Shown here: in pieces, positions 2,669 to 28,558 of the stretch
Numbering within the stretch: the first letter of the stretch is position 1
Layout: each line of letters opens with the position of its first letter
Virus record (IMG/VR): IMGVR_UViG_3300045996_000948
Location: 1 to 30,663 of that record
DNA length: 30,663 bases
From: a virus
Strand: one strand, 5' to 3'
Program-made: the position numbers and the translations under genes
Notes under the pieces: model-generated
What the model was told of the DNA's origin: nothing
What the model saw: only the letters and a program-made list of their open reading frames with translations
The model's database searches: none

Positions 2669-3121
2669 TCAGGGCGCCACGCCGCCTGGAACCGGCGCAT
2701 TGATCAAGAGCGTACTGGTTCTTACGGGACTCCCAGAGATATTGTTCACCTGACGGACGTTGGTCTCTGGGATCAACGCGCCCAGTGTCCCGAATGCTGC
2801 CACGGAGAAGAGCCCATTGATGGTGGCAGGGACCACGAGATCCTTATAACTGGCGGTTTGGCGAACGCCACCATCGACGGCCAGCGTTGCATTCGGATCA
2901 ATCGTGTCATTGCAGACTTTCTTCTTCCAAAACTCACTCCATTTCATTTGATCTTCTCGACATTCTGTCCAGGCCACCTCGCCCGGTATGCCCCAGGTGC
3001 CGGGAACATAATGGCGCTCTTTGATTTTGTTGCCCTTATGGAAGTGATCCAGCGTTTCGGCGCAGCCCGAGACCAGCAGCACCATCGCGCACAGGCCCAA
3101 GAACAGAGTTTTGAATGTCAT
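2669..3121 (-). CDS. Phage-encoded lipoprotein
   Basis: ATG at 3121 has GGAGGATCT immediately upstream; the open frame to 3307 has no such support. The 150-aa product begins MTFKTLFLGLCAMVLLVSGC, a textbook lipobox with V-S-G before the modified cysteine at residue 20. The mature protein starts AETLDHFHKGNK and contains a hydrophobic stretch (ATINGLFSVAAFGTLGALIP) that may be amphipathic or membrane-associated. It should be anchored to the periplasmic face of a membrane. No family is recognised. Lying between a secreted glycosidase-like gene and the lysis genes, it could act in lysis, superinfection exclusion or display. Confidence 0.75.
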   Translation of the reverse strand: MTFKTLFLGLCAMVLLVSGCAETLDHFHKGNKIKERHYVPGTWGIPGEVAWTECREDQMKWSEFWKKKVCNDTIDPNATLAVDGGVRQTASYKDLVVPATINGLFSVAAFGTLGALIPETNVRQVNNISGSPVRTSTLLINAPVPGGVAP

Positions 3122-3143
3122 AGATCCTCCGTGTGAATGTGTG

Positions 3144-4013
3144 TCACCATTGCCCCGCCGCCTTGGTCGGTCGTGAGTAATGCCCCGCCTGAACGCGCTT
3201 GGGGAGCCGCGCGATAAACTGATTCCACTTGGGGACAAATTCGGCCCACGTGCGCTGCCACCCACCCCACAGAACACACCCGTTCGTGCCAGCGAATGAA
3301 ATCTCAATCATCGGAAGCCACGCGGCATCATCCAAATCATCCTCTTCATGCGCATGCGCCTTCCACCAAATGTACGGCCAGATCGGACGGTTGGCATCAC
3401 CATACGTATCTCGCAGTCGCTTCGTTTCGCGGATGTTTTCCCGGTAGTAGTCCTGGACTCCGAGATTCGCATTGACCCCGTTCACGGCCACGTTGTAGAA
3501 GTAATACAGCGTAGGGAAAAACGCATCCACCACCGCCGCCATCGCCGCCATGTCATCGTTCTCCGCTTGCCACGCGATGTAGTCCGGGTGCCCCGGGAGC
3601 GTCCTCGCGCGGAAGAGGTCCCGCTTTGGCGCGTACCCATAAAACCCGAACTTCACATCCGGCCGGTGAGCCTTGACCTGGAGGAACATCGTGGCAAACT
3701 TCTGGGCTGTCGCCAGGCGCTCCGCTTGCGTCGTCATCGGCCAATCTTCGTGGTCAATAACCGCCCATCCATGCGGCGCCACGAGATTCGCCGCGAGGTT
3801 CTCGTACCAAGCCGTCGGCGGTAACTCATGTCCATCACTCCACCCAGCGTAGGTGGTACGGCTGATAAACGGCAACGATGTGAGCCCGTGGGATTGGATC
3901 TGCTCCGCTGACGGTTTGTCGGCTTGGAGGAGCTGATACCAATACGTATCAGCATAGGTCGTCGACACCGCTATGGCCCAGAGTAGAGCGCTTATGACCA
4001 TTCGTGTGATCAT
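3144..4013 (-). CDS. Secreted glycosidase-like protein with DxE motif (GH56/GH18-like barrel)
   Basis: The product is 289 aa. Residues 1-21 form a Sec signal peptide ending TTYA. The mature part looks like a TIM barrel: repeated beta/alpha blocks, WAVIDHEDWP at 83-92, KFGFYGYAPKRD, AFFPTLYYFYNVAV and IWPYIWWKAH. The D87-H-E89 pair at the end of a strand is like the DxE catalytic pair of GH56 hyaluronidases and other barrels that use substrate-assisted catalysis. The family itself is not certain. It overlaps the preceding gene by ATGA. The product should be exported and could degrade a surface polysaccharide. Confidence 0.6.
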   Translation of the reverse strand: MITRMVISALLWAIAVSTTYADTYWYQLLQADKPSAEQIQSHGLTSLPFISRTTYAGWSDGHELPPTAWYENLAANLVAPHGWAVIDHEDWPMTTQAERLATAQKFATMFLQVKAHRPDVKFGFYGYAPKRDLFRARTLPGHPDYIAWQAENDDMAAMAAVVDAFFPTLYYFYNVAVNGVNANLGVQDYYRENIRETKRLRDTYGDANRPIWPYIWWKAHAHEEDDLDDAAWLPMIEISFAGTNGCVLWGGWQRTWAEFVPKWNQFIARLPKRVQAGHYSRPTKAAGQW

Positions 4014-4753
4014 CGTGAGATGCCTGTGATCTTCATCTCGAAATAGTCAACGTCATAGGTCTTCGACGCAGCGGCTCCGTTGGTCAGCTGAAACGCTGGA
4101 TCAAGCGCCACAGTTGGAATATTCGTCGTCATCAGCCCACACACGTGGACACCTCCAAACACGAATTGAACTCCCGCCGATGTTCGTATATATCCAGAGC
4201 CGTGAAACTCTGTATCAACCGCGACGCCTGAATCGATGCGCGTTTGCGTCGACGCCTGGCGCGTGACACAAAACCAGTTCGCATCCTCCCCCAACCGCTC
4301 CAGGTAAATCCCATTGACCGGCGTGATGCTCGATGAGGCACTCATCGACCCCCACCGCATCTGGGTATCGGCATCGATTTGATTCAACCGCATCTCAGCA
4401 TGGACAGAATGCGGATGCGATGGATCGAACGCGCCCGAAGTGACGACGACCAAATCCATCCGTGTCAGGGTCCCAGACACTGACCCTGAATCGCGTCGTA
4501 TGATCCCCGCGCGGTTGGGTTCAGTATTGATGTAGTTCGTCGTCCCACCAGCAATGCCCCATCCTAGATTTCCAACGTTGCCGCTGGAATTGATCCCGCC
4601 CATGAAATCGTCTTGGAGTTCAAGCGTAGTGTGATAGTCATACAACGATGATTGACTCGGCACCGCCCCAGCGGCAGGGGTCAGATAGCTATCGCCCCAG
4701 GCCGGCGACGCGAGGAACAGGAACAGAAGTGAGAGAACAGCTGAGCGGCGCAT
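4010..4753 (-). CDS. Secreted lectin-like beta-sandwich protein
   Basis: The product is 247 aa. The signal peptide is MRRSAVLSLLFLFLASPAWG, cleaved before DSY. The rest is beta-rich with features of concanavalin-like jelly rolls: an opening ELQDDFMGG strand, RMDLVVVTSG, HAEMRLNQID, a GIYLER strand and a closing YDVDYFEMKITG typical of the last strand of such domains. A likely role is carbohydrate binding as part of a tail fibre or surface coat. It starts four bases upstream of the next gene's frame end style junctions: its ATG overlaps no gene but its own stop overlaps the glycosidase-like gene start, while its start lies just after the TAATG junction with the gene at 4753. The exact ligand cannot be told. 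Confidence 0.6.
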   Translation of the reverse strand: MRRSAVLSLLFLFLASPAWGDSYLTPAAGAVPSQSSLYDYHTTLELQDDFMGGINSSGNVGNLGWGIAGGTTNYINTEPNRAGIIRRDSGSVSGTLTRMDLVVVTSGAFDPSHPHSVHAEMRLNQIDADTQMRWGSMSASSSITPVNGIYLERLGEDANWFCVTRQASTQTRIDSGVAVDTEFHGSGYIRTSAGVQFVFGGVHVCGLMTTNIPTVALDPAFQLTNGAAASKTYDVDYFEMKITGISR

Positions 4754-5136
4754 TAGTAGTGCACCTCCGCTAGAAATCTGGCATCCGTGCCGGTGATGGT
4801 TTCGATTTCCACGCTCATATACGGTGGATTGGCGGTGACCGATCCACGGCAGATGTCCGCGACTCGTGTGGTGCCAGAGAGCGTAAAGACGCAGAGAGCC
4901 ACTCGGTTGCTCACGTCGGTATTTCGGTGCGCGTAAATGACGCCGCTGGCGAGCACACTTCCAGTTCCCGCCACCTCAATCCAGAGTGTTTTGAAGTTCG
5001 AGGGTGTGGGCACCGCGACACCCGCCGATGCCGTCGTAACGTTCTCAGCCAGTACCTTGGTGTTGGCGGCATGTGTCGGTGAGGCGAACAACACCGCTAG
5101 AATCAGTCCTACTATTGACCATGCTCGAAACTGCAT
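4753..5136 (-). CDS. Small secreted beta protein
   Basis: The product is 127 aa. The signal peptide MQFRAWSIVGLILAVLFASP ends in THA before the mature start ANTKVLAENV. The remainder resembles a small Ig-like or jelly-roll domain (KTLWIEVAG, SVLASGVIYAH, MSVEIETITGTDARFLAEV), with two cysteines (CVF, ICRG) that could form a disulfide after export. Its stop shares one base with the start of the next gene (TAATG). No family name can be given. It sits between the BppU-like gene and the lectin-like gene and is probably part of the same adhesion set. Confidence 0.6.
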   Translation of the reverse strand: MQFRAWSIVGLILAVLFASPTHAANTKVLAENVTTASAGVAVPTPSNFKTLWIEVAGTGSVLASGVIYAHRNTDVSNRVALCVFTLSGTTRVADICRGSVTANPPYMSVEIETITGTDARFLAEVHY

Positions 5137-5152
5137 GTGGTTCCCCTCCTCC

Positions 5153-5476
5153 CTAAATCTTCTTCCGGATCGTGTACGTGATCGGTTTCGGCTGCGTGGT
5201 CACCTTCCCCTCGGAGTCGATCACCACCACATTGAGGCGCATCTGGGATTGCTCCCCGGTCGGCACGACCAGGTCGCCCGCGCCGAACTGGTAGGAGACG
5301 CGCCCCGCCGACGCGTCGACGATCGTCATGTCCTTTTGCACCGGCGTGCCGCCGTCGATCGTCCAGCGCAGCACCACCGTCGCGTCGGTCAAATTCACGA
5401 TCGTGCGCGGCTTGCGATTGCGGACGGTGCCCTGCAGCACCGTCCCCGTATCGTCTTCGACTAGGTCGAACCCCAT
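5153..5476 (-). CDS. BppU-like N-terminal domain baseplate or tail protein
   Basis: The 107-aa product has no signal peptide. It matches the plan of the Ig-like N-terminal domain of phage baseplate upper proteins: GFDLVEDDTG at the start, a DLTDA-type turn (NLTDATVVLRWTIDGG), MTIVDASAGRVSYQFGAGDL in the middle, and a final strand pair ending TYTIRKKI. In lactococcal phages this domain attaches receptor-binding proteins to the baseplate. Here it stands alone between two signal-peptide-bearing genes, which makes the cellular location of its partners puzzling. The start has a ribosome site in GGAGGGGTGACC just upstream. Confidence 0.7.
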   Translation of the reverse strand: MGFDLVEDDTGTVLQGTVRNRKPRTIVNLTDATVVLRWTIDGGTPVQKDMTIVDASAGRVSYQFGAGDLVVPTGEQSQMRLNVVVIDSEGKVTTQPKPITYTIRKKI

Positions 5477-5499
5477 AGGTCACCCCTCCGACGTTCGAC

Positions 5500-6000
5500 T
5501 TAGTCTTCCGTGATCGTGCTCGTCGTCTTCAGGCGTGGGATGGTCCCGACGGTCATGGTGATGGCCGTGGACAGCGCCCCGCAGTACAGCAGCTTTCCAG
5601 TGCTGGAGGCGGCGGTCCCGACACACCAGTGCGTCAGGTTCGATCCGCATGACGCGGTACATTCTCCGAAATCAATATTCGCCACAGGGCTGACGCTGTT
5701 GCCGGTGACGGTCCATCCGCCTGTGGTGCGAGCGACCGCCACCCGCGCATAGCCGGTATAGGCGGCTTCACTGCTCGTCTGATTGCCTGAATCCGTTGGA
5801 TCTGCCGTGTGCATGGACACTTGCAGATTCGTCAACGGGCTGGAGGCCGCATTGTCGGCCATGTTGGCAATGGCTGTGGCGTTGAAGATCAGCTTCAGGA
5901 GATCGTTTTCGAACGTGTCCCCTTTCCCCGCCGCAAACACCTGTCCGCACAGCACCAGCACCAAGACCACTGCCAGACTCACCCGCTTCAAGAAGTCCAT
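5500..6000 (-). CDS. Conserved phage tail-fibre-type protein carrying a signal peptide
   Basis: The product is 166 aa. From residue ~27 on (DTFENDLLKLIFNATAIANM, then SMHTADPTDSGNQTSSEAAY and YARVAVARTTGGWTVTGNS) it strongly resembles a widespread phage protein usually annotated as tail fibre, which as I know it begins directly with the 'NDLLKLIFN' part. Here 23 residues of signal peptide (MDFLKRVSLAVVLVLVLCGQ, ending VFA) precede it. The mature part also has cysteines (CTASC, HWCVG, YCGAL) well placed for disulfides. The gene has GGAGGG upstream and follows the giant protein gene by 14 bases. The added leader is the odd feature. Confidence 0.75.
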   Translation of the reverse strand: MDFLKRVSLAVVLVLVLCGQVFAAGKGDTFENDLLKLIFNATAIANMADNAASSPLTNLQVSMHTADPTDSGNQTSSEAAYTGYARVAVARTTGGWTVTGNSVSPVANIDFGECTASCGSNLTHWCVGTAASSTGKLLYCGALSTAITMTVGTIPRLKTTSTITED

Positions 6001-6014
6001 AATCCCTCCTGTGA

Positions 6015-9000
6015 TTAAACCTCGATCAGTTCTTCGATCGATTCTGCCACCAACACATCCACCATCACTTCCGCTGCCACATAGAACTCGACCTCCAGGG
6101 TGCGGCGGATCGGATTGAAGACCGGCACCCCAGTGGCGACTCCCTGGCCGTCGCTGGCCCCGCTGACACCGACAATTCTTCCACTCGCTCCGTCGGCCTC
6201 TCCGATGCCGTCACTCGTGGCCGCTCTTGAATCAACCCGTGCGCCGATCCCGTCGGCCTCACCCTCCCCCGCTGCCGACCCCTGACGAGACACCAGCTCA
6301 GCTTGACTGCCGATGGCCTCACCACCGCTGGCGGCCGATCCCGCCTGCTGGTCGATCCGCGCACTTTGCCCGGTGGCGAGGGCCTGGCCCGCACTCGTAC
6401 CCTCTTCACCCACCGCCCCCGCGTCCGCCGGATCTCCAATGGCTTCGGCCGTGCCAGCGATCGTCGGGCCCGAGCCGACAATCTTCCCACTCTGTCCCTG
6501 TGCGTCCGAGACTCCGGTGCTGGTGGCAGACCGTCCGTCAATGCCCGCTCCTGCGCCGGCGGCCGTCGAGTCACCCGAGGCGGCCCCTTCTCGACCCACG
6601 ATTGCGCCACTCTCCCCTGAGACCGCCGCGGCCCCTTCGCTGTCTCCCTCCGTTCCGACCGTGCGCCCACTCGCGCCGGTCGCCTCCGCAGCGCCCTGTG
6701 CGCTGCCCTGTTGCCCTTCGAGCCGGGCGCTCTGGCCGCTCGCGGTGCCTAGACCGGTACTGCTGCCGTCGGCCCCCTCCGCCCCGGCATCGGTCGCATC
6801 GCCGAACGCGCTGCCACTGCCCTCGCTGGTCGCCCCCGTCCCTTGGATCCTGGCGCTGACACCCTCGGCCTCCGCGTCCGCGACACTCGTTCCCACCTCC
6901 GCCTGAACGGCGGCGGCTTGTCCGGTGCTCTGGCCTTGGCCGGCCGATGACCCAGCGCGCCCCGCCGTCGCGCCGCTCTGTCCGGTGCTGGTCCCGGCTC
7001 CGACACCGGATCCGGTGCGGGCTTCCAGATCCGCACTGCTCCCGGTGGCGAGCCCGGCGCCGGCGGCGCTGCCGTCACGCTCTTCGACCGCCGACCCGGG
7101 ATCAAAGGAAAACCCATTGCTGAACGAGGCGTAACTCACAAACTTCGTGGGGTTCGCGGCGATGACGTTCTGTAACGCCGTCGCTTCGAGCGTGCCCGGT
7201 TGGATCAAACAGAGGTAGGGAAAGAAGTCGACGACCGTCCACGCGCCCTCTTCAGGCGGTCGGAGATCCGTCCAGTTGGAAATCATCTTGACCTGCGGAT
7301 GATCGTTGAGGACGACCGGGAGGATATCCGTCACCTTGGACGCGCGCCGCGTGGTGTTCTCGTTCATCCCATCGCACAGGCCGAATTCCACAAAGCCGAT
7401 GGGCAGCGAGTTGACCGCCGCGATTTGATCCAGCATGTGCTCCATGCTGGTGATCCAGTCCGCATTCGAGCGCAGGATGTCCGAGCCGCTGAGCCAGGTC
7501 CACCAGGCGTCGTAATAGTCCAGCGGGTAGAACGTCAGGGACCAGTAGTCGCAATAGGCCGCGCCGGGGAACCACTTCGCCGGATCGTTGCAATCCTCGA
7601 GTACCGCAATTGCGTAAGACTCGTGACCGACAAAATCCAGTGAGTCAAACGCCAGCTGATTGTCCGAGGCGTCCTTCCACCAATGGCAGGTAAAGCCCTG
7701 GCTGTCGAACGTCAGGAAGTTCAACCCTTCCCGTCGCACCAGGAAATCGTGAATGTAGCGTTGCCCGGCTTTCAGGCGTCCGATGCCGTCGGGCATCGTC
7801 GGCCCGCTGCAACCGTCATACAAATTGCTGGGCGCACCAGACGGAGGAGCCGGTGGGACGAAGTTTTCGTAGGCGTCTTCATTGGTCATCGCCCAGGCGG
7901 TATCTTGATCGCCGTTCGGGCCCCACCCGCCGAACCATTCCCATCCAATGCCGTTCGGCTCACGGCCGCACTGGATAAAGCAGGGTTTCCCGAAACTACG
8001 TAGTTCGTCCGCGAATGTCTCCAGGTTGCTGTCGTAATCGCCATCCAGCAGCTTATCGACCGTGAACCCGGACGGGTGTTCTGTTTCACCAGGATCATCC
8101 GTCGCGCACAAGTTGTACGCCGAGGTGACGATCACCTTGCCATCCGACCATGCGGCATTGGCCGCAGTGACATCCAGATGCGGATGCCCGCTGACAAACT
8201 CGCTGCCCCAGTTGCCATACCCTTCGTGGTAGTGCGAAGCCGGAATCCCGCACACCGTTTCAAACGTATCGATGTCATCATCCATCCACTGATAGCAGCC
8301 CCACAGCACGCCGTCGGACGGAAAGACGATCTTCGCGTGTTCGAGCAGACTCAGATCCAGCGCTTGCCCGGAGGCCACCGCCGATCCGGCCGCGGTGCCC
8401 GCGACGCCCGCGATCTTGCCGGAGACGCCAGAGACCGTGGCCGCGCCAACCGATGTGCCGTCGCGTTCTTCGATCGCAGTCACCGCCCCCACGTCGGAGA
8501 ATTCGATCCAGGGCCGGGTGTCCGTTGTGGCCGTCTCATCTTCTAATCGATCGGTATTTGCCGTCGTATCGCCGAAGCGGAACGTGTGGGTGCGGCCAGT
8601 CGTCGCCGCATCCGTGCAACGGCAGCCGATTTCGATCACCAAGTATCCGCCCCCCGAGGGGACGGTCCAGGGCGTGAGAATGGGACTGGTCCAGGCTTTC
8701 GGAAAGAGGCGCGACGCGGCGGAGGTCGGGAATTCATTCGCCAGCGCGGTCGTATCGACATCGAGCAACGTCGAGGGATTCGCTCCCGCGCTATCGACCC
8801 CACGAATCTTGAGCTGGGCCTGCGCGTTCGCGGCGGCATTGTTTTCGAGGACGCGAATCACCCCGCGCGCGGTGCCACTGATCACGGTTCCTGCAGGGAT
8901 CGGCCCATAGATGTATTGCCGCGCGAGGACGTTGAGCGGGCTCGTTGAAACGGCCTCGTCTGACGTCTTGTTGGCCATCGCGGTATCGGATGGTGTACTG

Positions 9001-9680
9001 ACGGCCGCGATGCGATCGGCGTCTTCCGTATCCCCCCAGATGCCATCGAAGGCGGGCGAGATCGCAGGAGCCCCAGAGGACGGGAGATAGAGCCGCAACT
9101 TATTGGCGACGTTCCCCCCACCGAAGGCTCCGAACTCGCCTGCCCCGTTCAGGTAATGAATCAGCGCGGCATAGCCTCCGGCCGTGATCGTGGTATCGCG
9201 GATCGCCATGACGGCCGTGCCGTTGTAGAATCCGACGATCAGCGAGCCGTAGGCGGCGATGCCGATCACATCCCCAGCGGTGATGTCTCCAGAGAGATTG
9301 AACGCGACAAGAAACGTATAGGTCCCGCTTGCGGCCACCCTGTACAGCTGGAGTTGATCATTCCCTGCGGCCACTCGACTGATGGCGATTTCATAGTGAT
9401 CCGCATTGGCGTTGTTATTCGCCTGGAGCCGAACCACACAGCCGAGTGACAGCGTGGCCTCCAGCGTCGGAATCGTCGCAATGACCACGTGCGATTCCAT
9501 GTCCGCATTGAAGGAGGTATTCCAGGCCGCGCCGTGATAGTCGCTGGTGGTATCCGGCGCAATCTTATTCGAGAGGATCTTCAGTCCTGTGCCGACCGTC
9601 GTCACCCAGGAGGACGACGGCGGCGGGCCCTCGTTCGCGCGAGTCGCGTTATCGAGGACTGGTGTGGACGGAAAGGCCAC
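6015..9680 (-). CDS. 1221-aa tail protein with glycosidase-like domain and Gly/Ala/Ser repeat arm
   Basis: GTG at 9680 shares a base with the previous TAG and has GAGAGGGGA upstream. Residues ~1-200 look like a concanavalin-type jelly roll; 205-400 are a second beta-sandwich (YLVIEIGCRCTD, HTFRFGDTT). Residues 404-441 are a first repeat unit starting EERDG. Residues ~445-850 resemble a clan GH-A barrel such as GH26, with E574 in CGREPNGIGWEWFGG as likely acid/base and E765 in IGFVEFGLCDG as likely nucleophile; their spacing is larger than in typical GH26, so the family is tentative. Residues 866-1186 are ~22-residue repeats, followed by a hydrophobic/acidic C-terminus. There is no signal peptide. 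Likely a tail-attached polysaccharide-degrading protein. Confidence 0.7.
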   Translation of the reverse strand: MAFPSTPVLDNATRANEGPPPSSSWVTTVGTGLKILSNKIAPDTTSDYHGAAWNTSFNADMESHVVIATIPTLEATLSLGCVVRLQANNNANADHYEIAISRVAAGNDQLQLYRVAASGTYTFLVAFNLSGDITAGDVIGIAAYGSLIVGFYNGTAVMAIRDTTITAGGYAALIHYLNGAGEFGAFGGGNVANKLRLYLPSSGAPAISPAFDGIWGDTEDADRIAAVSTPSDTAMANKTSDEAVSTSPLNVLARQYIYGPIPAGTVISGTARGVIRVLENNAAANAQAQLKIRGVDSAGANPSTLLDVDTTALANEFPTSAASRLFPKAWTSPILTPWTVPSGGGYLVIEIGCRCTDAATTGRTHTFRFGDTTANTDRLEDETATTDTRPWIEFSDVGAVTAIEERDGTSVGAATVSGVSGKIAGVAGTAAGSAVASGQALDLSLLEHAKIVFPSDGVLWGCYQWMDDDIDTFETVCGIPASHYHEGYGNWGSEFVSGHPHLDVTAANAAWSDGKVIVTSAYNLCATDDPGETEHPSGFTVDKLLDGDYDSNLETFADELRSFGKPCFIQCGREPNGIGWEWFGGWGPNGDQDTAWAMTNEDAYENFVPPAPPSGAPSNLYDGCSGPTMPDGIGRLKAGQRYIHDFLVRREGLNFLTFDSQGFTCHWWKDASDNQLAFDSLDFVGHESYAIAVLEDCNDPAKWFPGAAYCDYWSLTFYPLDYYDAWWTWLSGSDILRSNADWITSMEHMLDQIAAVNSLPIGFVEFGLCDGMNENTTRRASKVTDILPVVLNDHPQVKMISNWTDLRPPEEGAWTVVDFFPYLCLIQPGTLEATALQNVIAANPTKFVSYASFSNGFSFDPGSAVEERDGSAAGAGLATGSSADLEARTGSGVGAGTSTGQSGATAGRAGSSAGQGQSTGQAAAVQAEVGTSVADAEAEGVSARIQGTGATSEGSGSAFGDATDAGAEGADGSSTGLGTASGQSARLEGQQGSAQGAAEATGASGRTVGTEGDSEGAAAVSGESGAIVGREGAASGDSTAAGAGAGIDGRSATSTGVSDAQGQSGKIVGSGPTIAGTAEAIGDPADAGAVGEEGTSAGQALATGQSARIDQQAGSAASGGEAIGSQAELVSRQGSAAGEGEADGIGARVDSRAATSDGIGEADGASGRIVGVSGASDGQGVATGVPVFNPIRRTLEVEFYVAAEVMVDVLVAESIEELIEV
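6123..7085 (-). repeat. Degenerate ~22-residue Gly/Ala/Ser repeat array inside the giant tail protein
   Basis: About fifteen units follow a pattern close to G-S/T-x-x-G-x-G-x-A-x-G-x-S-A-R-I-x-G-x-x. Conserved points are GS or GTS at the start, TG/SG before a Q/A-S pair, and a bulky I/L/V plus V/E/D after the arginine. Examples are GTSAGQALATGQSARID and GSAAGEGEADGIGARVD. The repeats differ enough in DNA that they are not recent copies. A single related unit lies at 8358-8474, on the other side of the glycosidase-like domain. Confidence 0.8.
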
Positions 9681-9925
9681 TAGTGGTCCCCTCTCAGCGT
9701 GTCAATGATCCGTTCCTTCAGCGCCCTCGGGACCGCTGGATGTTCGGCAATGTCTCGTAGGAGGTCGATGGCTTCTTTCCCCCGCACGGGGACCATGTTT
9801 GTCCAGCGTTGCTCGATGTCCTGTTGCGCGGTCAGCAGCTTCTCGTATTGCTTGGCCAGGGCATCGAACTCCGCCAGCCCTGGCATCTGATCGCGGAAGC
9901 GTTCTCGGAGTTCCTGCACGTTCAT
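9680..9925 (-). CDS. Small helical cytoplasmic protein
   Basis: The 81-aa product is all-helical and charged (RERFRDQMPGLAEFDALAKQ, KALERI-like end with RALKERIIDTLRGDH). It has no signal peptide and no cysteines. It overlaps the upstream gene by four bases and the giant protein gene by one (TAGTG), so all three are translationally coupled. No family is recognised. A small helical protein just before a very large tail protein could be an assembly chaperone, which is inference from position only. Confidence 0.6.
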   Translation of the reverse strand: MNVQELRERFRDQMPGLAEFDALAKQYEKLLTAQQDIEQRWTNMVPVRGKEAIDLLRDIAEHPAVPRALKERIIDTLRGDH

Positions 9926-10497
9926 CGCGTCGCGTTCTCCAAGGCTTGAGCCAGCGCCTTCATGCAGGCGGTATGCGCGAGTTTCTTGCTGAGACAGGTC
10001 TTGAGCCCATCCTGCAGCGCCTCCTTCGTCGTCACGATTGGAACCGGCGGCGGCTCGACCGGGGGCGGTTCGACCGGTGGAGGCTCAACGGGAGGCGGCT
10101 CGACCGGGGGCGGTTCGACAGGCGGAGGTTCTACAATGACTGGAGGCAAGAGGTTGGCGGTCAGATTGCAGATGCCTTCCGTGTCGCTGATGTACCAGTT
10201 CGACAACGTACCGTCCTCGGCTTTCTGCCTCGCCTGCATACACAACCAATCGGACGGCAGGATGGATGATTTGTTGATGAAGTCACCAAACGGAAACTGC
10301 GTGGTTCCAGGCTTGATATGAACGGTCGTCTCCCCGCCTTGCGCCCGGAACCGGAGTTCCGTGGTGGCCGACCCTTTGCTGTAATCGGTCCAGCAAATGA
10401 CGCCTTTCTCACAGAACGTCAGCGGCGCTTGAGCCATCGCCGGGAACGCGACGAGACTCATCAGCGCTGAGATGGCAACTATGCCTAGCTTATTCAT
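9922..10497 (-). CDS. Secreted cysteine-rich protein with (VEPPP)6 linker
   Basis: ATG 10497 has GGGGAGG eight bases upstream; the TTG 18 bases further up does not. The 191-aa product has a signal peptide ending FPAMA before QAPLTF. A small beta domain follows with paired cysteines (FCEKGVICW, CMQARQ, GICN). Residues ~122-151 are six VEPPP units, a stiff extended linker. The C-terminal ~35 residues form a helix with two more cysteines (TCLSKKLAHTACMKAL). The plan, beta domain plus proline rod plus helix, suggests a periplasmic or surface spacer. The first eight bases overlap the end of the interrupted gene upstream. Confidence 0.7.
   Translation of the reverse strand: MNKLGIVAISALMSLVAFPAMAQAPLTFCEKGVICWTDYSKGSATTELRFRAQGGETTVHIKPGTTQFPFGDFINKSSILPSDWLCMQARQKAEDGTLSNWYISDTEGICNLTANLLPPVIVEPPPVEPPPVEPPPVEPPPVEPPPVEPPPVPIVTTKEALQDGLKTCLSKKLAHTACMKALAQALENATR
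10045..10134 (-). repeat. Tandem 15-base repeat coding for VEPPP
   Basis: Six consecutive 15-base units encode VEPPP. The units vary at third positions (for example GGGGGC, GGTGGA and GGAGGC on the plus strand), so selection acted on the protein, or the array is old. Such arrays change length easily by slippage. Confidence 0.9.
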
Positions 10498-11500
10498 CAG
10501 ATGATCCTCCCCCAATCCCGGCCGGTGTGAGCGTGGAACGAATCGGACCCGGCGCTGTCACGGATGCGCACAGTTCGTTGGACAGCGGCGAGGTCCCGGC
10601 GCTGTTGAGTTGGTCGACCACATAGCAGCGATCGGTTTGCGTGGTGTAACTGACGGTATAGGTGCTGCTGTCCGGAATGAGTGTCGCCAAGAGCTAATAG
10701 GTCGGTTGCGTGCTGTGCTTCCAATAGACGCGCACATTGGTCTCTTGCCGGAGTCCGCTGGACAGATCGGTCCAGACGAGGCGTTCCGTGGAAAAGCCGC
10801 CCCCGCCGCCACTGGTTCCGGCCGCTCTGAGCGGAACAGCCAGGATGGCGAACGTCTGTGACGAGCCATAGGCCCAGCTGTAGGACGTGGAGGCCCCCAC
10901 AGCGGACAGATCGCTCCCGGCCCCGTGAAAGCTCCCCCCGTTGTCGATATCGGAATAGATGGACGAGCCGCCGCCGGTGGGACTCGGCGAGCTGCCGGCA
11001 TTGGTAATCGTGAGGGACCCCACCACCACATCGCCGACTGCCGTGGTGACGCTGACAGAAGGCGAGTCGCTATTGCCGGTGGCGCTGACCGGTGTCCCGA
11101 GTGGCGTCGTTCCATCCACGCCCAGCTCCGTAACCACACCGAGGATGATCTGCGAGGTCGAGGAGACGTTGGCGGCGACGGTTTGTGAACCCGATGGCGG
11201 ATTGTAAAGGCCCCACAATTCCACCGCGCACTGTCCGCCCGCGCAGGTGGAATTAAGCACGCGCCCGATGAACGTCGCCGGTGTGCCACCGATGGTGGCG
11301 GAGGTGACAGACGGGACCGAGGACACCCCGAACAGATGCACGCTGATGATCGCTTGAGCATTGGCCGCGCCGACGTTATGCGTGACACTGCAGCTGGTCC
11401 CGGAGCATTTGTTCTGCGACTCATCGTCACGCGTAATCGCGGCTTCAGCCGGCCAAGCCAGCAGCGACAGCAGACACAGCATGAGCAACCGCACGAGCAT
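10490..11500 (-). CDS. Secreted beta protein with C-terminal fibronectin-like domain, interrupted by an in-frame TAG
   Basis: The frame from ATG 11500 has a signal peptide (MLVRLLMLCLLSLLAWPAEA, then AITRDDE) and a beta domain with cysteine pairs (KCSGTSC, TCAGGQC). After a glycine spacer a fibronectin III-like domain begins (STERLVWTDLSSG, VRVYWKHST). A TAG at 10694-10696 would end the protein at 268 aa inside this domain. The same frame goes on for 67 codons to TAA at 10490 with the missing strands (STYTVSYTTQTDRCYVVDQL, SPLSNELCASV). The full product would be 336 aa plus the recoded residue. The end of the extension overlaps the next start by eight bases, as elsewhere in the operon, so the long form is the ancestral one. 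Either a recent nonsense change or readthrough. Confidence 0.7.
10694..10696 (-). other. In-frame amber codon inside the fibronectin-like domain
   Basis: The codons read CAA CCG ACC TAT TAG CTC TTG GCG, in the same phase on both sides. The base after the stop is C, the context most often linked with leaky stops in bacteria. No ATG or GTG start with a ribosome site lies in the following ~60 bases, so an independent downstream gene is unlikely. Confidence 0.85.
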
Positions 11501-12412
11501 TTAGCTGCCAAACCTCAAGTCTCCCACCCCGAGCGGTGGCAAGGGCGGCGGAGGAGGAGGGGGAGGCGTGGAGCCCCCACCGCCCCCGCCAGGTACAGGG
11601 CATCCAGAGCAGACCGCGATATGAAGATGGTCGACGAAGTGCGCCCACTCCTGAGAGGGTGTGGGGTTCACCGTCCCATCCCAAGTTTCACTCCAGACCC
11701 ATTCGTTCAATCCTGCAGAAGACAAGTTCATATTGGTGTAGCGTCCGGCCGGCTGCCCATTGACCCACCACATCACAGCGCCATCACGCGAGGTATTGGT
11801 TGTGCTCGATTTCAGGTAGGCTTCGATCTTGAACCAGTTTCCCGTCGGCACGGTTTGCCCGGAGCCGACATTAGGGAAGCAGGTCAAGCCAAGCGCGTCG
11901 CCGCCGCACGTATGCCCATTGTTGACGTTCCCGGAGTTGTGCCCAAAGAAGAGAAAGAACGGAGAGCCGGCCGCGTTCCCACCGCCCGGTCCGCCCATCA
12001 GCCCAAAGAATCCGTTGGATGCTGGGCCTCGCACGAAGAACATCTTGTTGGCCACTTGCCGGCCGAAGAACCCAGAATTGACACGCCACGTGAACCCCAC
12101 ATACATCTCGCGCGAGACGCCGCCGGAATTCACCCAGTTCAATTGCGATCCACCCGTATTCGCGCCAGGGCTCAACCAGGACTTGAAGGCGCTCGGCGGC
12201 GACAGCGGCGCGGAGCCGTCCTGTACGATCGCGCCAGCTTGATAGAAATTCGAGATGCCGCACCCCGATGACGAGGGTGGCCAGGTCGGCATGCTGCTGA
12301 ACGGACAATCCAACACCGTCTGAAAGCCGGCCGGCTTATTCGGCCAGGTGGCTTGCGCCCAGGACGGCGAGGCGATCAGCAGAAACAGGATGAGGACTCG
12401 AAGGATGACCAT
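11501..12412 (-). CDS. Secreted polysaccharide-lyase/lectin-like jelly-roll protein with Gly and Pro tail
   Basis: ATG 12412 has AGGAGG four bases upstream. The 303-aa product has a signal peptide (MVILRVLILFLLIASPSWAQ). The domain to ~residue 265 looks like a polysaccharide-lyase or concanavalin jelly roll: YVGFTWRVNSGF, KMFFVRG, NWFKIEAYLKS, GAVMWWVNGQPAGRYTNMNL, EWVWSETWDG. Cysteine pairs (SSGCG, HTCGGDALGLTCF, CSGCP) fit an oxidising location. The end is a glycine run, then about nine prolines, then LGVGDLRFGS. It may bind or cut a host glycan. It ends directly at the start codon of the next gene. Confidence 0.65.
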   Translation of the reverse strand: MVILRVLILFLLIASPSWAQATWPNKPAGFQTVLDCPFSSMPTWPPSSSGCGISNFYQAGAIVQDGSAPLSPPSAFKSWLSPGANTGGSQLNWVNSGGVSREMYVGFTWRVNSGFFGRQVANKMFFVRGPASNGFFGLMGGPGGGNAAGSPFFLFFGHNSGNVNNGHTCGGDALGLTCFPNVGSGQTVPTGNWFKIEAYLKSSTTNTSRDGAVMWWVNGQPAGRYTNMNLSSAGLNEWVWSETWDGTVNPTPSQEWAHFVDHLHIAVCSGCPVPGGGGGGSTPPPPPPPPLPPLGVGDLRFGS

Positions 12413-12420
12413 GACGCCTC

Positions 12421-14160
12421 CTAGCGCGTGATCCACCAGTCGCAGGTGTCCGATCCGCTGGACGAGCCATTGATCGTGAACCCGCTGGTGGTTTTGCTGG
12501 ACCAGTAAAAGGTTTTGTTGGCGTTGCAGCCGAGTTGGATGCGGTAGCTGGTATCGGCCTGCGCGGTGCCGAACGTCACGGTGCAGGTGGTCGAGGCGGC
12601 GAAGGTGCAGACCCCGTTGGTATTGAAGGCGGTCGAAGCACTCCCCGAAAACCCGCGCGCCCCGATGAGATAGCCGCTGTCCAGAATGAAGACCTCACCG
12701 GCCGAGGCCGCGCTCGTCAGATTCGTGGTCAGCCCGGTGTAGAGCGGATCGTAGACCGAGGTCCGCGTGCTGCCGGCGGAGATGCTGATGCCGGTCCCCA
12801 CCGTCGGCGTATTGCTCAGGATCGGCCAGAAGATGCGCGTCTGTGTGGAGAGGCTGGAATTGCCAATCCGGATGCCATTGGTGAAGGCTTCGCACTTCGG
12901 GCTGTAGAGATAGGTCCCCGTCGAGTTATTGACATCGATGCAGTTGGTGACATTGTTGAACCGCATGCCGCGCAGCTCAGTCGTCACCGCATCGACAATC
13001 AGCGCGCCGTTCGTCGCCGTGAGACAATAGGAATCGATCAAGAGGGTATTGGCGATCGTCCCGCCGGACATGGAATTGACGTAGTAACAGGTCTCGACGT
13101 TCTGCGCGTTCACGCGCTCAAATCGCGCGTCTTCGACATTGGTCAGATCGAAACAGGTCCCGCCGACGTTCGCCTTGTCGGTGTTGTCACAGGTGAAGTT
13201 CTCGAACTGCCAGCGATAGTATTTGACGGCCGTATTGGGCGACCGAAAGACCGCCGTGGTGAGCTGGCCCTTGAAAAACGTCGCGGCCATCCCCTCGCCT
13301 TGGATGCGGATATCGCTCCCGACGGTGATGATGGCGGTGATCTTGTAGGTACCCTTGCCCGCGACCAGTGTCCCACCGCCCGAGCTGATGCTGTTGACGG
13401 CCGTCTGCAGGCAAACCGTATCGTCGGTTGACCCGTCGCGCGCGCAGCCGAACCATTCCCCGCGGGCGAAGGTGAGGCCCTGCACGGTCCCGGCCCCGTC
13501 GAAGATCTTGCGCACCGGCGCGAGCATCGGACCTTGGATGGCGAGGACCACCGAGCTATTGATGGAAATCTTGCCGCTGCCGGCGATCCAGATGGTGACG
13601 TTCGGACAGACCGTGGCATTCGACGACAGCGTCTGGCTGTCGGAGATCCGCAGCATCTTGACGGCGCTGCTTCCGCAGAGGTCGCTGATCGCCGTATTCA
13701 GGCTGGCTTTCGTGGAGGCATCGACCACGTCGTTGATCGACCCGCCGGCGTTCGCGATATCCGTCCGGATGGCGTCGACCATCGACCTGGTGAGCGCTTG
13801 ATGAATGCAATAGGTCTTGCCCGCCGTGTTGTGATTGACCGCGCTGGTGCCCTCTTGTCCGCGCGTGATCGTGAAGGTATCGCTCGATCGGTTGGTGACC
13901 CGCACCCGTTCCCGGGAGGGATCGAGATGCGAGGCCCCATAGTCCGTGCAGTTGTAGACGGTGACCGTGTAGGGAAAGGACGCCGGGAACTTCGTCCCGA
14001 CTCCCGTGATCGCGATCATGGTGGTCGTCGAAGAATCGATACCGGCCGCGAGCGTCCCGAAGGCGTCGTCATTGATGGGATCGATAGTCGCGTGCGCCGG
14101 CACGCAGAAGACCAGGGAGAGCAGTGAGACGATCAACCACCGTTGCATAGACTTCCTCAT
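12421..14160 (-). CDS. Pectate-lyase-like beta-helix (tailspike-type) protein with signal peptide
   Basis: The product is 579 aa. Residues 1-24 (MRKSMQRWLIVSLLSLVFCV, PAHA) are a clear Sec signal. Residues ~30-120 resemble the N-terminal segment of phage tail-fibre proteins, with FTITRGQEGTSAVNHNTAGK. Residues ~236-272 hold the entry motif of pectate-lyase-3 beta-helices: DGSTDDTVCLQTAVNS, then GGGTLVAGKGTYKI. A long right-handed helix with T/N/S-rich turns follows, and a beta C-terminal domain ends in DTCDWWITR. The mature form has 16 cysteines. The start overlaps the fibre gene by ATGA. It would act as a glycan-binding or depolymerising spike; having both a tail-type N-terminus and a signal peptide is unusual. 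Confidence 0.75.
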   Translation of the reverse strand: MRKSMQRWLIVSLLSLVFCVPAHATIDPINDDAFGTLAAGIDSSTTTMIAITGVGTKFPASFPYTVTVYNCTDYGASHLDPSRERVRVTNRSSDTFTITRGQEGTSAVNHNTAGKTYCIHQALTRSMVDAIRTDIANAGGSINDVVDASTKASLNTAISDLCGSSAVKMLRISDSQTLSSNATVCPNVTIWIAGSGKISINSSVVLAIQGPMLAPVRKIFDGAGTVQGLTFARGEWFGCARDGSTDDTVCLQTAVNSISSGGGTLVAGKGTYKITAIITVGSDIRIQGEGMAATFFKGQLTTAVFRSPNTAVKYYRWQFENFTCDNTDKANVGGTCFDLTNVEDARFERVNAQNVETCYYVNSMSGGTIANTLLIDSYCLTATNGALIVDAVTTELRGMRFNNVTNCIDVNNSTGTYLYSPKCEAFTNGIRIGNSSLSTQTRIFWPILSNTPTVGTGISISAGSTRTSVYDPLYTGLTTNLTSAASAGEVFILDSGYLIGARGFSGSASTAFNTNGVCTFAASTTCTVTFGTAQADTSYRIQLGCNANKTFYWSSKTTSGFTINGSSSGSDTCDWWITR

Positions 14161-15368
14161 AGGTACGTCAGAATCTGGCGGACGCCCGCCGCGCCGTTGC
14201 CGCCGTTGCCGCCCGCTCCGGTCAGGGCCCCGGGCGCCCCGCCGGTCTGCGTGAACGTGCAGCCCTCATCGATCAGCCAGCCCTGCCGGCAGATCAGCCA
14301 GATATTCCCGGCTCCGCCGCCGCCCCCGCCGCCGCCATCCCCGCCGCCGGATGCGCCGCCGGATTGCCCGCTGCTGTTCAGCACGGCTGTGGATTTGAGG
14401 ATGATGACCGGAGCCCAGAGCACGATGGTGGCGCCGCCGTTGCCGCCCGCGCCCCCGCTTCGTCCGCCCCCTCCGCCCGCGCCGCCGGCCAGTGAGCGGA
14501 TGACGTCCATCGCCCGCATGATTTCATTCCCGGTCAACACGCTCGCATTGGCGCCATGCCCCGTCGCTGAGACCCCGCCTTGCTGCTGCAGGATCCCGTT
14601 CAGGACGGCTGCGCCACCGGCGCCTCCAGATGTCGATCCGTCGCCGCCTCCGCCGCCCCCGGCCTGATCGGTCCCGGTGACGCCGACCGATGACGCCGCG
14701 CCACCCGCTTGCCCCGCATGCTGGCATTGCAAGGTCCCGGCGATTTCGATGACCCGATCCGCCATGAGGCAGACAATCTGACGGTTGGCAGAGAGGGTCA
14801 CACCAGCCTTGAGCCGGAAGGATTGATAGATCCGGATGCCGCCGATCCCGGTGCTGCTGTTGGCGAGGTAGTAGCCCTCTGCGCCATAGGTCGATCCCGT
14901 CGGGGTGTGGTGCGGGCCGCTGTACGGCCCGGAGAAGGGCGCGACCGCCCGCGCGTCGATCGTGTCGGTGATGACGCCGGCGGCGGCGATCAGGACCGCG
15001 AGCAGGCAATAGTCCGGACTGTCGAACGTGGAGGAGAGCCGATCGAAGACCGCGCCGTTGACCTTGCCGAGTCCATCCCGCGTGAGGGCGAGATAGAGGT
15101 AATTCGTCCCGTTGACCGTCGTGACGGTGGTGCTGCCCGGGACGATGACGTGATAGCCCCCGACCATCGCCGCGCCGCTTGGAATGGAGATATCCAGGTT
15201 CGCGCTGGAGAGCGGCGCCTTGAGGCCGGACAGCACATAGTTCCGCTCGGCCCCAAAGCGCCATAGCGTGAGCTTCAATTCGCGGCCGAGCTTGCCGTCT
15301 CCGACCGTGGCCGCAATGTCGTTCGCCGAGGGAAAGATGGTTTCGTTCGTGATGGCGTAGGTCGTCAT
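14157..15368 (-). CDS. Glycine-rich tail fibre/adhesin
   Basis: The 403-aa product has no signal peptide and starts MTTYAITNETIFPSANDI, overlapping the upstream gene by four bases. Residues ~1-220 are beta-rich and resemble baseplate-attached fibre N-termini. Residues ~225-400 have repeated glycine runs (GGGGGGDGSTSGGAGG, GGAGGGGGRSGGAGGNGG, GGGDGGGGGGGGAG) separated by short hydrophobic strands (TIVLWAPVIILKS). This is like the polyglycine-helix sandwich of T-even gp38 adhesins and of exported glycine-rich surface proteins. It probably binds the host receptor. Glycine runs are prone to length change. Confidence 0.75.
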   Translation of the reverse strand: MTTYAITNETIFPSANDIAATVGDGKLGRELKLTLWRFGAERNYVLSGLKAPLSSANLDISIPSGAAMVGGYHVIVPGSTTVTTVNGTNYLYLALTRDGLGKVNGAVFDRLSSTFDSPDYCLLAVLIAAAGVITDTIDARAVAPFSGPYSGPHHTPTGSTYGAEGYYLANSSTGIGGIRIYQSFRLKAGVTLSANRQIVCLMADRVIEIAGTLQCQHAGQAGGAASSVGVTGTDQAGGGGGGDGSTSGGAGGAAVLNGILQQQGGVSATGHGANASVLTGNEIMRAMDVIRSLAGGAGGGGGRSGGAGGNGGATIVLWAPVIILKSTAVLNSSGQSGGASGGGDGGGGGGGGAGNIWLICRQGWLIDEGCTFTQTGGAPGALTGAGGNGGNGAAGVRQILTYL

Positions 15369-15850
15369 AGCGCGGTGAAGGTGCCTGTCCAGATATAGGT
15401 GACGGTGCTGGAGACGGTCTTATTGATGATCGGGTAGACCAGACGCGCCAGCATCGGCTTTCCGTTCGTCTCGCCGTTGGCGAAGATGCCGAACTCCTGC
15501 AGCGGGTAGCCGTTGGCCTGCCCGCTCGCGACGAACCCTTTCACTTCCCACTGGTTGTTCCCAATGCGCCGGCTGGTCGAAATCTGCGCGCGGAAGATTT
15601 CTCCGTGCAGCGTTTGATCCGTGGCCGACGGCGCCGTCGCGTGGTTGCCGACCGCGAAATAGTTGGCCGTTTGAAACGTGTCGCCCTTGGCGCGATCGAT
15701 GAGGAAGGCCAGGCCGTCGTCCACAATCTTGTTGTGCGTGCGGATGAGGCGGGTGAGCTTCCCGGACTCGGCATCGTGCACGAGGATGGTGACGCGCCCG
15801 CTCAGGTGGAGGCGGCTGCCGAATCGTCGTCGGATGCGGCGGATACTCAT
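15365..15850 (-). CDS. Small tail-tip or fibre-associated protein
   Basis: The 161-aa product has a basic start (MSIRRIRRRFGSRLHLSG). A domain follows that resembles phage proteins with 'N-x-I-V-D-D-G-L-A' and 'F-A-V-G-N-x-A-T-A-P' blocks: HNKIVDDGLAFLIDRAKGD, YFAVGNHATAPSATDQTLHG, PLQEFGIFANG. This pattern, an 'is-valid' helix followed by AVGTGTTAP-like turns, is common in tail-fibre-associated proteins. It lies between hub and fibre and overlaps both by four bases. A structural role at the tail tip is likely; the exact family is not known to me. Confidence 0.65.
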   Translation of the reverse strand: MSIRRIRRRFGSRLHLSGRVTILVHDAESGKLTRLIRTHNKIVDDGLAFLIDRAKGDTFQTANYFAVGNHATAPSATDQTLHGEIFRAQISTSRRIGNNQWEVKGFVASGQANGYPLQEFGIFANGETNGKPMLARLVYPIINKTVSSTVTYIWTGTFTAL

Positions 15851-17355
15851 CCCACCTCCGCGAATTCCGGCTCGTCCACGTCGATGATCCAGGTATGGGC
15901 CGTGTCTTCATTCACGAGCAGCGCATCGGCGAGCGTCGCCTGATCGACCAGCGGCACCGGGAACTCGACGATTTCGCCCTCGCGCACGCCGACCTTCTGG
16001 CCGGTCTGCGCGAACTTCATCCAGAATTCCTTGAAGGCGTTTTTCACTTCGCCGGTCGTACAGGACACCCGGTACCGGCGGAGCTCGAGGGTGATCTGCG
16101 TGACCTCGACGGAGGTGATCAGCATTTCCGTGGTGGGCAGACCGAGCGTGGGATAATCGACCGTCACCAGTTGGCCGATATCGAGGCCCTCCATCTCGGT
16201 CTCGAACTCCAGCTGCGCATCCAGGCCATGCCGCCGCAGGAGCCCCGCGCCGCGCGTAATGACCACCACCCCGCCTTCCAGCGAGGCATCGACATCCACG
16301 GCTTCGTAGAGGCCGCTGCCGCCCTCCACGGCCTGCCGTTCGGCCACGCCCGCGACGTTCTGCTGATAGGTGATGCCGGAATAGCTCCCGACATAGGTCA
16401 CTTCCAGAATCTCGCCGACCGCGAGCTTCGGCTGAGCACCTTCCCCGACGCTGTGGTCCTGGCTGATTTCGTTTTGATCCCGGCTCCAGTACCAGTGCTT
16501 GCCTTCTTCGACGCCCCGAATCCCCACGGTCTGCGGTTGGCCGGCGCGCCGGATCGTGGGCGCCTCATAGACGGGAAAGGAGAGCGGAAAGGTGGTGGTT
16601 TCCCCGTCGCCCAGCACGCGTTCCGTCAGCGGGTTGGTGATTTCTTTCCAGCCCTTGATGATCTGCGTGTTGCGGTAGTCGTTCCGGCTCTCGCGCACGG
16701 TGGCGCCGCGCACGGCTGAATTCACTTCGTTGATGGTGAAGGGCGCCGCGGCATGCTGCCGAGCATAGAAATGCAGGCGCTTTTCGTAATCGACGAACCA
16801 GAAGAACCCCACATCCTTGGACAGCTCGTCCATGATCGTGGCGATCGGCACATGGTTCCAATTGGCGCGGGTGAGCGAGAGGCCGTCTTGAATGTTGCCG
16901 GCGGTGAGGCCTTCGACGGCCAGATGCGTGGCCAGGAGGTCGCGGACGATGTCCCCGGCGAAGGCGTCCTCGTAGGATTTGACGGCCGTGCGCCGATCGA
17001 GGATCTGATTCCAATCGGTGCAGGTCATCCGGACGGTCCGCCGCAGCGCGTGCCCTTCGGAGAGAAACTGCTCTTCCTTGTCGTTGACCGTGCCGGCGAA
17101 CTGCCGGACGCCGTTCCAGGTGAACACCACTTCCTGGCCGATCAGCGGCCGCCAGCTATCCTCGATTTCGAAGGCGCACTCGAACGTGTCCCGCGCGTTC
17201 AGTTCCTTTTGGATTCTGTAGTCGAAGACCTTGAGGTAGCGGGCGATGGCGTCATCCCCGCCCACACGCAGGACCAGAGAGGACGGTGCGACACCCCCAG
17301 CGGCGCTAGGGATGGACCCCAACGGAACGGTACCGAGCGGGCCGCTCCCGATCAT
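15847..17355 (-). CDS. Tail hub-like baseplate protein
   Basis: The 502-aa product lies directly after the tape measure gene, overlapping it by ATGA. Residues ~25-110 have a beta-barrel look (RIQKELNARDTFECAFEIED, GQEVVFTWNGVRQFAGTVND) like the gp27/gpD-type hub proteins. Residues ~115-170 contain TDWNQILDRRTAV and VRDLLATHLA, typical of this protein class in siphophages. Later parts are beta-rich with an LDIGQLVTVDYPTLGL segment. It should form the ring at the tail tip that joins tube, tape measure and fibres. No lysozyme or peptidase domain is seen in it. Confidence 0.75.
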   Translation of the reverse strand: MIGSGPLGTVPLGSIPSAAGGVAPSSLVLRVGGDDAIARYLKVFDYRIQKELNARDTFECAFEIEDSWRPLIGQEVVFTWNGVRQFAGTVNDKEEQFLSEGHALRRTVRMTCTDWNQILDRRTAVKSYEDAFAGDIVRDLLATHLAVEGLTAGNIQDGLSLTRANWNHVPIATIMDELSKDVGFFWFVDYEKRLHFYARQHAAAPFTINEVNSAVRGATVRESRNDYRNTQIIKGWKEITNPLTERVLGDGETTTFPLSFPVYEAPTIRRAGQPQTVGIRGVEEGKHWYWSRDQNEISQDHSVGEGAQPKLAVGEILEVTYVGSYSGITYQQNVAGVAERQAVEGGSGLYEAVDVDASLEGGVVVITRGAGLLRRHGLDAQLEFETEMEGLDIGQLVTVDYPTLGLPTTEMLITSVEVTQITLELRRYRVSCTTGEVKNAFKEFWMKFAQTGQKVGVREGEIVEFPVPLVDQATLADALLVNEDTAHTWIIDVDEPEFAEVG

Positions 17356-27391: not shown

Positions 27392-27395
27392 AAGG

Positions 27396-27587
27396 TCACC
27401 GTGATGGTGGCGTTCTGGTCGGAATGCCTATGAACACGAGGCCGAGAAGCAGGCAGCCTAAGATCACACAAGCCCATCCGCTCCCCAACAACAGGTACGA
27501 TCCCGTCGTGATGAGTGAGAAGGCCGCCAACAGCACCAGATCGAGCAGATCGATGGTCTGCCGGAGTGCCGTCCACATGCGTCTCAT
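27396..27587 (-). CDS. Small two-helix membrane protein
   Basis: The 63-aa product has two hydrophobic segments (residues ~14-36, LLDLVLLAAFSLITTGSYLL; ~38-57, WACVILGCLLLGLVFIGI), a basic start (MRRMW) and a basic end (RTPPSR), so both ends probably face the cytoplasm. Small membrane proteins like this occur near the portal gene in several siphophages without known role. An ATG at 27578 is an alternative start. No clear ribosome site is seen for either. Confidence 0.65.
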   Translation of the reverse strand: MRRMWTALRQTIDLLDLVLLAAFSLITTGSYLLLGSGWACVILGCLLLGLVFIGIPTRTPPSR

Positions 27588-27727
27588 CGTGAAGTGTCAT
27601 TGGCAAATTGGCGCACGATCACGGCAGGGTACCAGCCCCATTAGAATGACCATACGGCACTTTGCGGAGGTTTACGTAGACTTGTCGGAATACTTATTCT
27701 TATACAGTCTCAAAAAGGTATGTCATC

Positions 27728-27764
27728 ACAAAAAACAGGGCGGAGGCCTTTCAACCCCCGCCCT
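27728..27764 (-). terminator. Intrinsic terminator after the 47-aa gene
   Basis: On the minus strand AGGGCGGGGG pairs with CCTCCGCCCT (10 pairs, one G-U) around an eight-base loop, followed after one G by TTTTTT (27730-27735). It should stop transcription from the promoter at 28330-28358. Late mRNA from the terminase genes would also meet it unless antitermination acts. Confidence 0.85.
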
Positions 27765-27790
27765 TCCAACCACTCTTAGCTATAGTTCAA

Positions 27791-27934
27791 TTACTTGGTA
27801 TCACCATAGCCTGGTTTAGGTACCCGCTCAACAGTCGAGCCTTTTGGATCCCTGCGAGCTTCTTCGACAGTGATGAACCGTCCGTCGCTCGCATCTCGAC
27901 CTTTGAGAGTTGTTTTCGATTCTTTCTTGGCCAT
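27791..27934 (-). CDS. 47-aa basic small protein in a separate transcription unit
   Basis: ATG 27934 has AGAAGGA seven bases upstream and the frame ends with TAA at 27791. The product has a lysine-rich start (MAKKESKTTLKGRD), then GRFITVEEARRDPKGSTVER and a VPKPGYGDTK end. Small proteins of the form GRDxxxGRFxxxxEAxxxPxxTxVERVPKPG are common in bacterial genomes and plasmids, with no defined function. Directly downstream is a strong terminator. Base composition is less GC-rich than the flanking head genes. Confidence 0.8.
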   Translation of the reverse strand: MAKKESKTTLKGRDASDGRFITVEEARRDPKGSTVERVPKPGYGDTK

Positions 27935-28322: not shown

Positions 28323-28329
28323 GAGGCGC

Positions 28330-28358
28330 AGGATAGAGACGCCGTTGTAAAAAGTCAA
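28330..28358 (-). promoter_or_regulatory. Sigma70-like promoter downstream of the HTH gene
   Basis: On the minus strand TTGACT (28353-28358) and TATCCT (28330-28335) are separated by exactly 17 bases. This is the best promoter match noticed in the window. It begins 11 bases after the stop of the HTH gene and points to the structured leader and the 47-aa gene. Confidence 0.65.
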
Positions 28359-28368
28359 GAGACAGCCC

Positions 28369-28548: not shown

Positions 28549-28558
28549 CGGGCCTCCC

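Follow-up and report, generated by a model that had tools for sequence, protein, structure and literature searches.

In a 30,663-base virus record, analysed here in full (the window; 61% G+C), eight genes located after the tail hub and before the lysis genes begin with Sec signal peptides (SPs). This run is a real and unusual feature and probably, as judged from sequence, constitutes a late, Sec-exported module of disulphide-bonded adhesins and glycan-acting or depolymerase proteins of a Nitrospira siphovirus. The siphovirus late genes lie on the minus strand and include terminase, portal (PF04860), capsid (PF05065), tape measure and hub; the SP run follows the hub, and small genes near the left end of the window follow the run. 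The portal is 79% identical to that of IMG/VR contig G002 and 82-83% identical to those of Nitrospira and Nitrospiraceae MAG contigs (G003, G004). Based on the identity to the MAG contigs, we infer nitrite-oxidising Nitrospira as the host lineage, which an earlier note on this DNA had missed, together with the recurrence of the SP feature in unrelated prophages of the same bacterial family.

Export signals in the late operon

Signal peptides were called with a rule-based Sec predictor written for this analysis (cut-off 7.3), which on a 48 kb calibration stretch of E. coli K-12 called 9/9 exported and 0/20 cytosolic proteins. The earlier note had assigned signal peptides to eight genes and a lipobox to gene 2669, and the calibrated predictor returned 8/8 positives, each with an n-region, an h-region and an AxA-type site at its N-terminus (scores 8.1-10.7), as well as the lipoprotein start of 2669. 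These nine were the positives among 28 tested CDS of the window, with no other real CDS at the cut-off; genes 5153, 6015 and 9680, described before as signal-less, received no call. Among the structural CDS of five control phages (lambda, PdC23, ctuNt529, GJ44 and DC1), 1 of 114 was called (Fisher p ~1e-6 against the window), namely lambda Lom, which is truly exported, and of the antisense ORFs of the window 1/95 was called. The control survey supports the earlier view that such export is unexpected for phages.

The genes of the SP region are tightly packed or overlapping (as at the stop of 14157..15368, which shares bases with the 12421 start), and the region gave no promoter match on the minus strand (Table 1). 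The most likely starts of 11501 and 9922 are ATG 12412 and ATG 10497. The limits of a further gene were also corrected: the SP reported for "10490" is present, but the gene itself is ORF 10694-11500, as an in-frame TAG (10696-10694) cuts the FnIII-like module of 10490-11500, the frame staying open for 66 more codons to 10490. The TAG could be a real nonsense change, an assembly error or a readthrough site, three options that look alike here; recoding was rejected because TAG ends several other window genes.

Table 1 Genes of the signal peptide module and its upstream neighbours.
Feature	Coordinates	Strand	Evidence
Tail hub (GPD-like), no SP	15847..17355	-	Weak Phage_GPD match, E=0.0019; adjoins module upstream
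Tail-fibre-related protein, no SP	15365..15850	-	phrog_5417, E=5e-20; weaker tail fiber families
Gly-rich fibre-like protein, no SP	14157..15368	-	N-terminal relative at same place in G039
12421: SP, tail-fibre N-terminal domain, variable C-terminus	12421..14160	-	SP score 10.7; 16 mature Cys
11501: SP, domain corresponding to C-terminus of SP-less podovirus G001 fibre	11501..12412	-	SP score 9.4
10490/10694: SP, minor-tail domain, TAG, open FnIII-like remainder	10490..11500	-	SP score 9.2
9922: SP, FnIII-like part, Pro-rich repeat	9922..10497	-	SP score 9.05; 6 mature Cys
9680: small helical protein, no SP	9680..9925	-	Similar small SP-less ORFs at same place in G003, G039
6015: 1221-aa protein with repeat region, no SP	6015..9680	-	Partial relatives in G003, G039
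5500: SP, Gp80 fibre protein	5500..6000	-	PF23140, E=1.2e-15; 4 mature Cys
5153: BppU_N-like, no SP	5153..5476	-	Sub-cut-off Pfam match, E=7e-4
4753: SP, small protein	4753..5136	-	SP score 8.8; SP-less G001 relative, 33% over aa 32-120
4010: SP, probable jelly-roll lectin/glucanase-like fold	4010..4753	-	AlphaFold and Foldseek; two mature Cys
3144: SP, GH56 hyaluronidase-like domain	3144..4013	-	PF01630, E=1.7e-7; one mature Cys
2669: lipoprotein (LVSG|C)	2669..3121	-	Start ATG 3121 after GGAGG

Other parts of the record and its relatives gave further observations. Between portal and terminase, G+C is lower over 1.2 kb (27392-28558) that contain no clear late gene; a portion of this segment matches the G039 prophage at 77% identity. 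At positions 1-500 G+C falls to 46% and an opposite-strand ORF runs off the left end, so that this may be DNA of the flanking host or of an early region. In the relative G003, the terminase large subunit (L069:6707-9523) has 938 aa against 596 aa and carries after residue 138 an in-frame insert with a weak LAGLIDADG match, probably an intein. Hub orthologues occupy the same place in G002, G004 and G039; as a single-sequence query against IMG/VR the hub gave no matches, and an archaeal virus, vir515, has a hub relative.

Tail-type proteins with and without signal peptides

Four proteins of the run are related to tail families: 12421 (phrog_8469, E=1.2e-9, aa 32-138), 10694 (its minor-tail domain matching phrog_553, E=5e-14), 5500 (PF23140 over the mature part, 58.4 bits against a curated cut-off of 27) and, via the G001 fibre, 11501. 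For 9922 and 4753 sequence comparison showed no such relation, and we read the FnIII-like part of 9922 by eye, with no family match. Searches of the phage database with 10694, 4010 and 3144 gave no matches. The AlphaFold model of 11501 was uninformative (pLDDT 34); that of 4010 was moderate (pLDDT 63), and its Foldseek matches were GH16, PL7 and galectin folds, which makes a jelly-roll fold of the lectin or glucanase kind probable. Gene 3144 reached 31 bits against the GH56 Pfam family (curated cut-off 23.2) and matched hyaluronidase-1 in the PDB (E=4e-5); its DxE pair (D87, E89), presumably catalytic, recurs in its G001 relative. The solved GH56 relatives found are animal enzymes, whereas 3144 is a predicted enzyme encoded by a phage. 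Two further candidates were set aside, a GH26-like middle of 6015 that had no support from Pfam or PDB and a PDB match of 5500 to a repeat protein over a short stretch that looks like chance.

Outside this group of prophages the relatives of these proteins largely lack signal peptides. All 80 relatives of 5500 in IMG/VR are SP-free, and so are the Gp80 proteins of six reference phages, which begin at the mature N-terminus of 5500; 5500 differs from the family in its SP and its four mature cysteines. The N-terminal domain of 12421 occurs without an SP at 78/80 IMG/VR loci, at most of which it begins a few residues from the ORF start; the two SP-positive loci are the relative G002 and L156, the latter with the same order of hub, fibre and SP genes. 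The annotated tail-fibre genes of PdC23 and DC1 start 4-5 codons before the match to this domain, and that of Itty13 starts inside it. An unrelated podovirus, G001, encodes SP-less relatives of 11501, 4753, 4010 and 3144: that of 11501 is the C-terminus of a 645-aa fibre, and that of 3144 (59% identical) starts where the mature form would start. By computational comparison, therefore, the signal peptides are shown to be joined onto tail-type proteins that are SP-free elsewhere, and the SP-free relatives in other viruses suggest that this virus completes or deploys part of its tail or attack kit outside the cytoplasm.

The tail-fibre region of lambda encodes one exported protein, Lom (PMC12309495), and a similar set of lysogenic conversion genes, expressed from the prophage and altering the host surface, could be imagined here. 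We regard this as improbable, since the genes are packed inside the late operon with no promoter match of their own, their homologues are of tail type, and there are eight of them against one. Lom itself is an outer-membrane protein, neither tail-type nor glycan-acting, and its gene stands singly, in contrast to eight in a row in the window.

Signal peptide retention and cysteine content

Related prophages, which the earlier note had proposed to search, keep the signal peptides (G004, G039 and G003). Relatives of 12421 carry them in G002, G004, G039 and L156. In G004, of the Nitrospiraceae, they occur on genes 7573 and 6457 as well as on the 12421 and 10694 relatives; the lipoprotein is also present, and the relative of 11501 (G004 8088-8981) has a probable but atypical SP with an acidic n-region. 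The prophage G039 lies in a chromosome from the same bacterial family and differs in its head and in most of its tape measure; it has SP-positive relatives of 12421, 10694 and 11501 and four more SP-positive genes, including a GDSL-type hydrolase. The 2669 relatives in G004 and G039 are 63% identical and have the lipobox. G003 encodes an SP-positive Gp80 whose mature start is 86% identical to that of 5500 and whose SP is 35% identical, and an SP-positive pectate-lyase-like protein on a second contig end, which we take for the remainder of that prophage. In 7/9 orthologue pairs compared, conservation was lower in the SP than across the initial 110 residues of the mature protein, with AxA-type cleavage sites kept despite the divergence. 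Computation thus shows that, over long divergence, orthologues and swapped-in proteins of related Nitrospira prophages alike have kept predicted signal peptides. A Gp80 profile blind to the SP found signal peptides on only some Nitrospirota matches (G003 C9 and G231 positive, G039 without), and the Gp80 proteins of the Nitrospirota prophages G039 and G004 lack one. This counts against the module reading in so far as not every such protein needs an SP.

Cysteine content was also distinctive. In mature SP-positive proteins it reached 2.0% both in the window and in G004, and 1.8% in G005, whereas the SP-less proteins encoded by these phages had 0.66-0.82% (p=4e-10 when the window and G004 are combined). 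Counts were even in 17/20 mature SP-positive proteins. SP-positive Gp80 copies have four mature cysteines in the window and two in G003 and G231, compared with 0 or 1 in 78/80 SP-less relatives. Such enrichment is expected for proteins that fold in the periplasm, although it does not extend to every member, 3144 having one mature cysteine and 4010 two.

The hydrophobic N-termini might alternatively belong to virion proteins made in the cytoplasm, as helices that contact membranes or form trimers, a reading for which the acidic n-region of the G004 orthologue could be cited, export being predicted here from sequence. This is highly improbable given that AxA-type sites are kept while the SP sequence diverges, that SP-free homologues start right after the cleavage site, that the SP-positive proteins are enriched in cysteine, and that a pectate-lyase-like gene of another Nitrospira prophage has a twin-arginine-type start. 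The proposal that several tail-type, carbohydrate-acting proteins are exported is well supported by the SP calls, their conservation, the cysteine content and the SP-free homologues.

Recurrence and possible roles of the putatively exported set

Profile searches within the same bacterial family found SP-positive spike- or fibre-type genes in several unrelated Nitrospira prophages of other phage types, a sample biased toward SP-positive genes because both of the profiles used contained SP columns. In G018 a spike N-terminal domain, matching spike or fibre N-termini of E. coli and Oceanospirillum, directly follows the SP. G117 has SP-like starts on three adjoining genes, one of them over the cut-off, and in G025 an SP-positive protein with a depolymerase C-domain adjoins a transglycosylase virion protein. 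In another prophage region of G003 (C12), a relative of window gene 20903 bears an SP, and the pectate-lyase-like gene there (L142:9424-11004, minus strand) has the twin-arginine-type start (RRQFVLG). G005, a 70 kb contig of 44% G+C, carries an SP-positive gene run with three tandem relatives of 4010, and also larger SP-less proteins with 4010-like and GH56-like regions. No SP-positive gene follows the hub of L320, a hub relative found by profile, and the feature is therefore not general for the hub superfamily. Elsewhere, a distant hub relative has downstream of its hub an SP-positive protein of 602 aa with 21 cysteines (L322:12348-14156), and another IMG/VR phage has two SP-positive genes (L166:7032, 452 aa; L166:8387, 432 aa) after a tail-fibre gene that lacks an SP.

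As an exported adhesin and depolymerase module, the SP-positive proteins would leave the cytoplasm late in infection, be cleaved and then oxidised in the periplasm, and be freed when the cell lyses. Proteins that still have a tail-type N-terminal domain or represent a whole fibre protein (12421 and 5500) may attach to virions once outside the cytoplasm. Those consisting of a binding domain or enzyme alone (11501, 10694, 4010 and 3144) would probably act unattached after export, on the polysaccharide or matrix at the host surface, where they could loosen the matrix for progeny release or strip or cover receptors. Grouped with the G018 spike, 12421 and 5500 point to particle attachment outside the cytoplasm, and the other four point to free secreted action on host glycans; both routes may hold. 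The sequence is compatible with each of the three uses proposed in the earlier note: a secreted coat, masking against superinfection, and tail parts added in the periplasm or after lysis. The GH56 domain, the jelly-roll model of 4010, the GDSL hydrolase and a beta-helix protein point to polysaccharide as the predicted target.

Each route can also be taken as the whole explanation. If all SP-positive proteins were virion parts, exported for their disulphides and added at or after cell opening, one would understand the tail-fibre domain directly after the SP in 12421, the spike-type domain in the same position in G018, the complete Gp80 protein of 5500 and the placement of the SP genes in a tail operon. 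We hold this rather doubtful for the set as a whole, as 11501, 10694 and 3144 have no evident docking part, the first two being inner or C-terminal parts of tail proteins and the third an enzyme domain. A kit that is secreted and never enters virions, targeting the exopolysaccharide or the receptors on infected cells, neighbours or debris by matrix loosening or by receptor removal or masking, is plausible, if somewhat short of an even chance. It would suit the enzyme domains (GH56, GDSL, pectate-lyase-like and beta-helix), the standalone binding domains with no visible docking part and G005, where standalone SP-positive 4010 relatives coexist with the larger SP-less proteins that contain a 4010-like part. 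Export would then need another reason, since lysis alone would free such proteins, and the tail-type regions kept in 12421 and 5500 also count against it.

The earlier note knew of no phage system described with a run of this kind, and none was found in the open-access full-text literature, although a description in a subscription journal is possible. Open-access searches on SP-bearing tail proteins, Nitrospira phages and Tat or tailspikes gave only Lom and WceF as parallels. WceF of Pantoea stewartii is a glycan-modifying enzyme of tailspike fold with a Tat signal (PMC7949094); its gene, however, belongs to a bacterial exopolysaccharide cluster, outside any phage tail operon. Among the closest known counterparts are also the tail-fibre and depolymerase modules of siphoviruses and podoviruses, which share the position after the hub, the N-terminal fibre domains and the swapped C-termini and enzymes, whereas the members in the window have export signals and extra cysteines.

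Particles of tailed phages are taught to be made in the cytoplasm. Extracytoplasmic tail completion, if true, would amount to a two-compartment assembly route for tailed phages, and the feature would be categorically new if the cleaved proteins were present in particles. In its broadest form, in which Nitrospira phages of several unrelated tail types finish part of the tail outside the cytoplasm, through Sec and occasionally Tat export and periplasmic disulphides, the parts joining at or after cell opening, the idea is at present unlikely. A tail-type set with export signals and extra cysteines, maintained in several Nitrospira prophage lineages, would mean either that tails are finished elsewhere or that a kit attacking receptors and matrix is secreted, and either reading matters for how phages attack the principal nitrite oxidisers in wastewater and soil.
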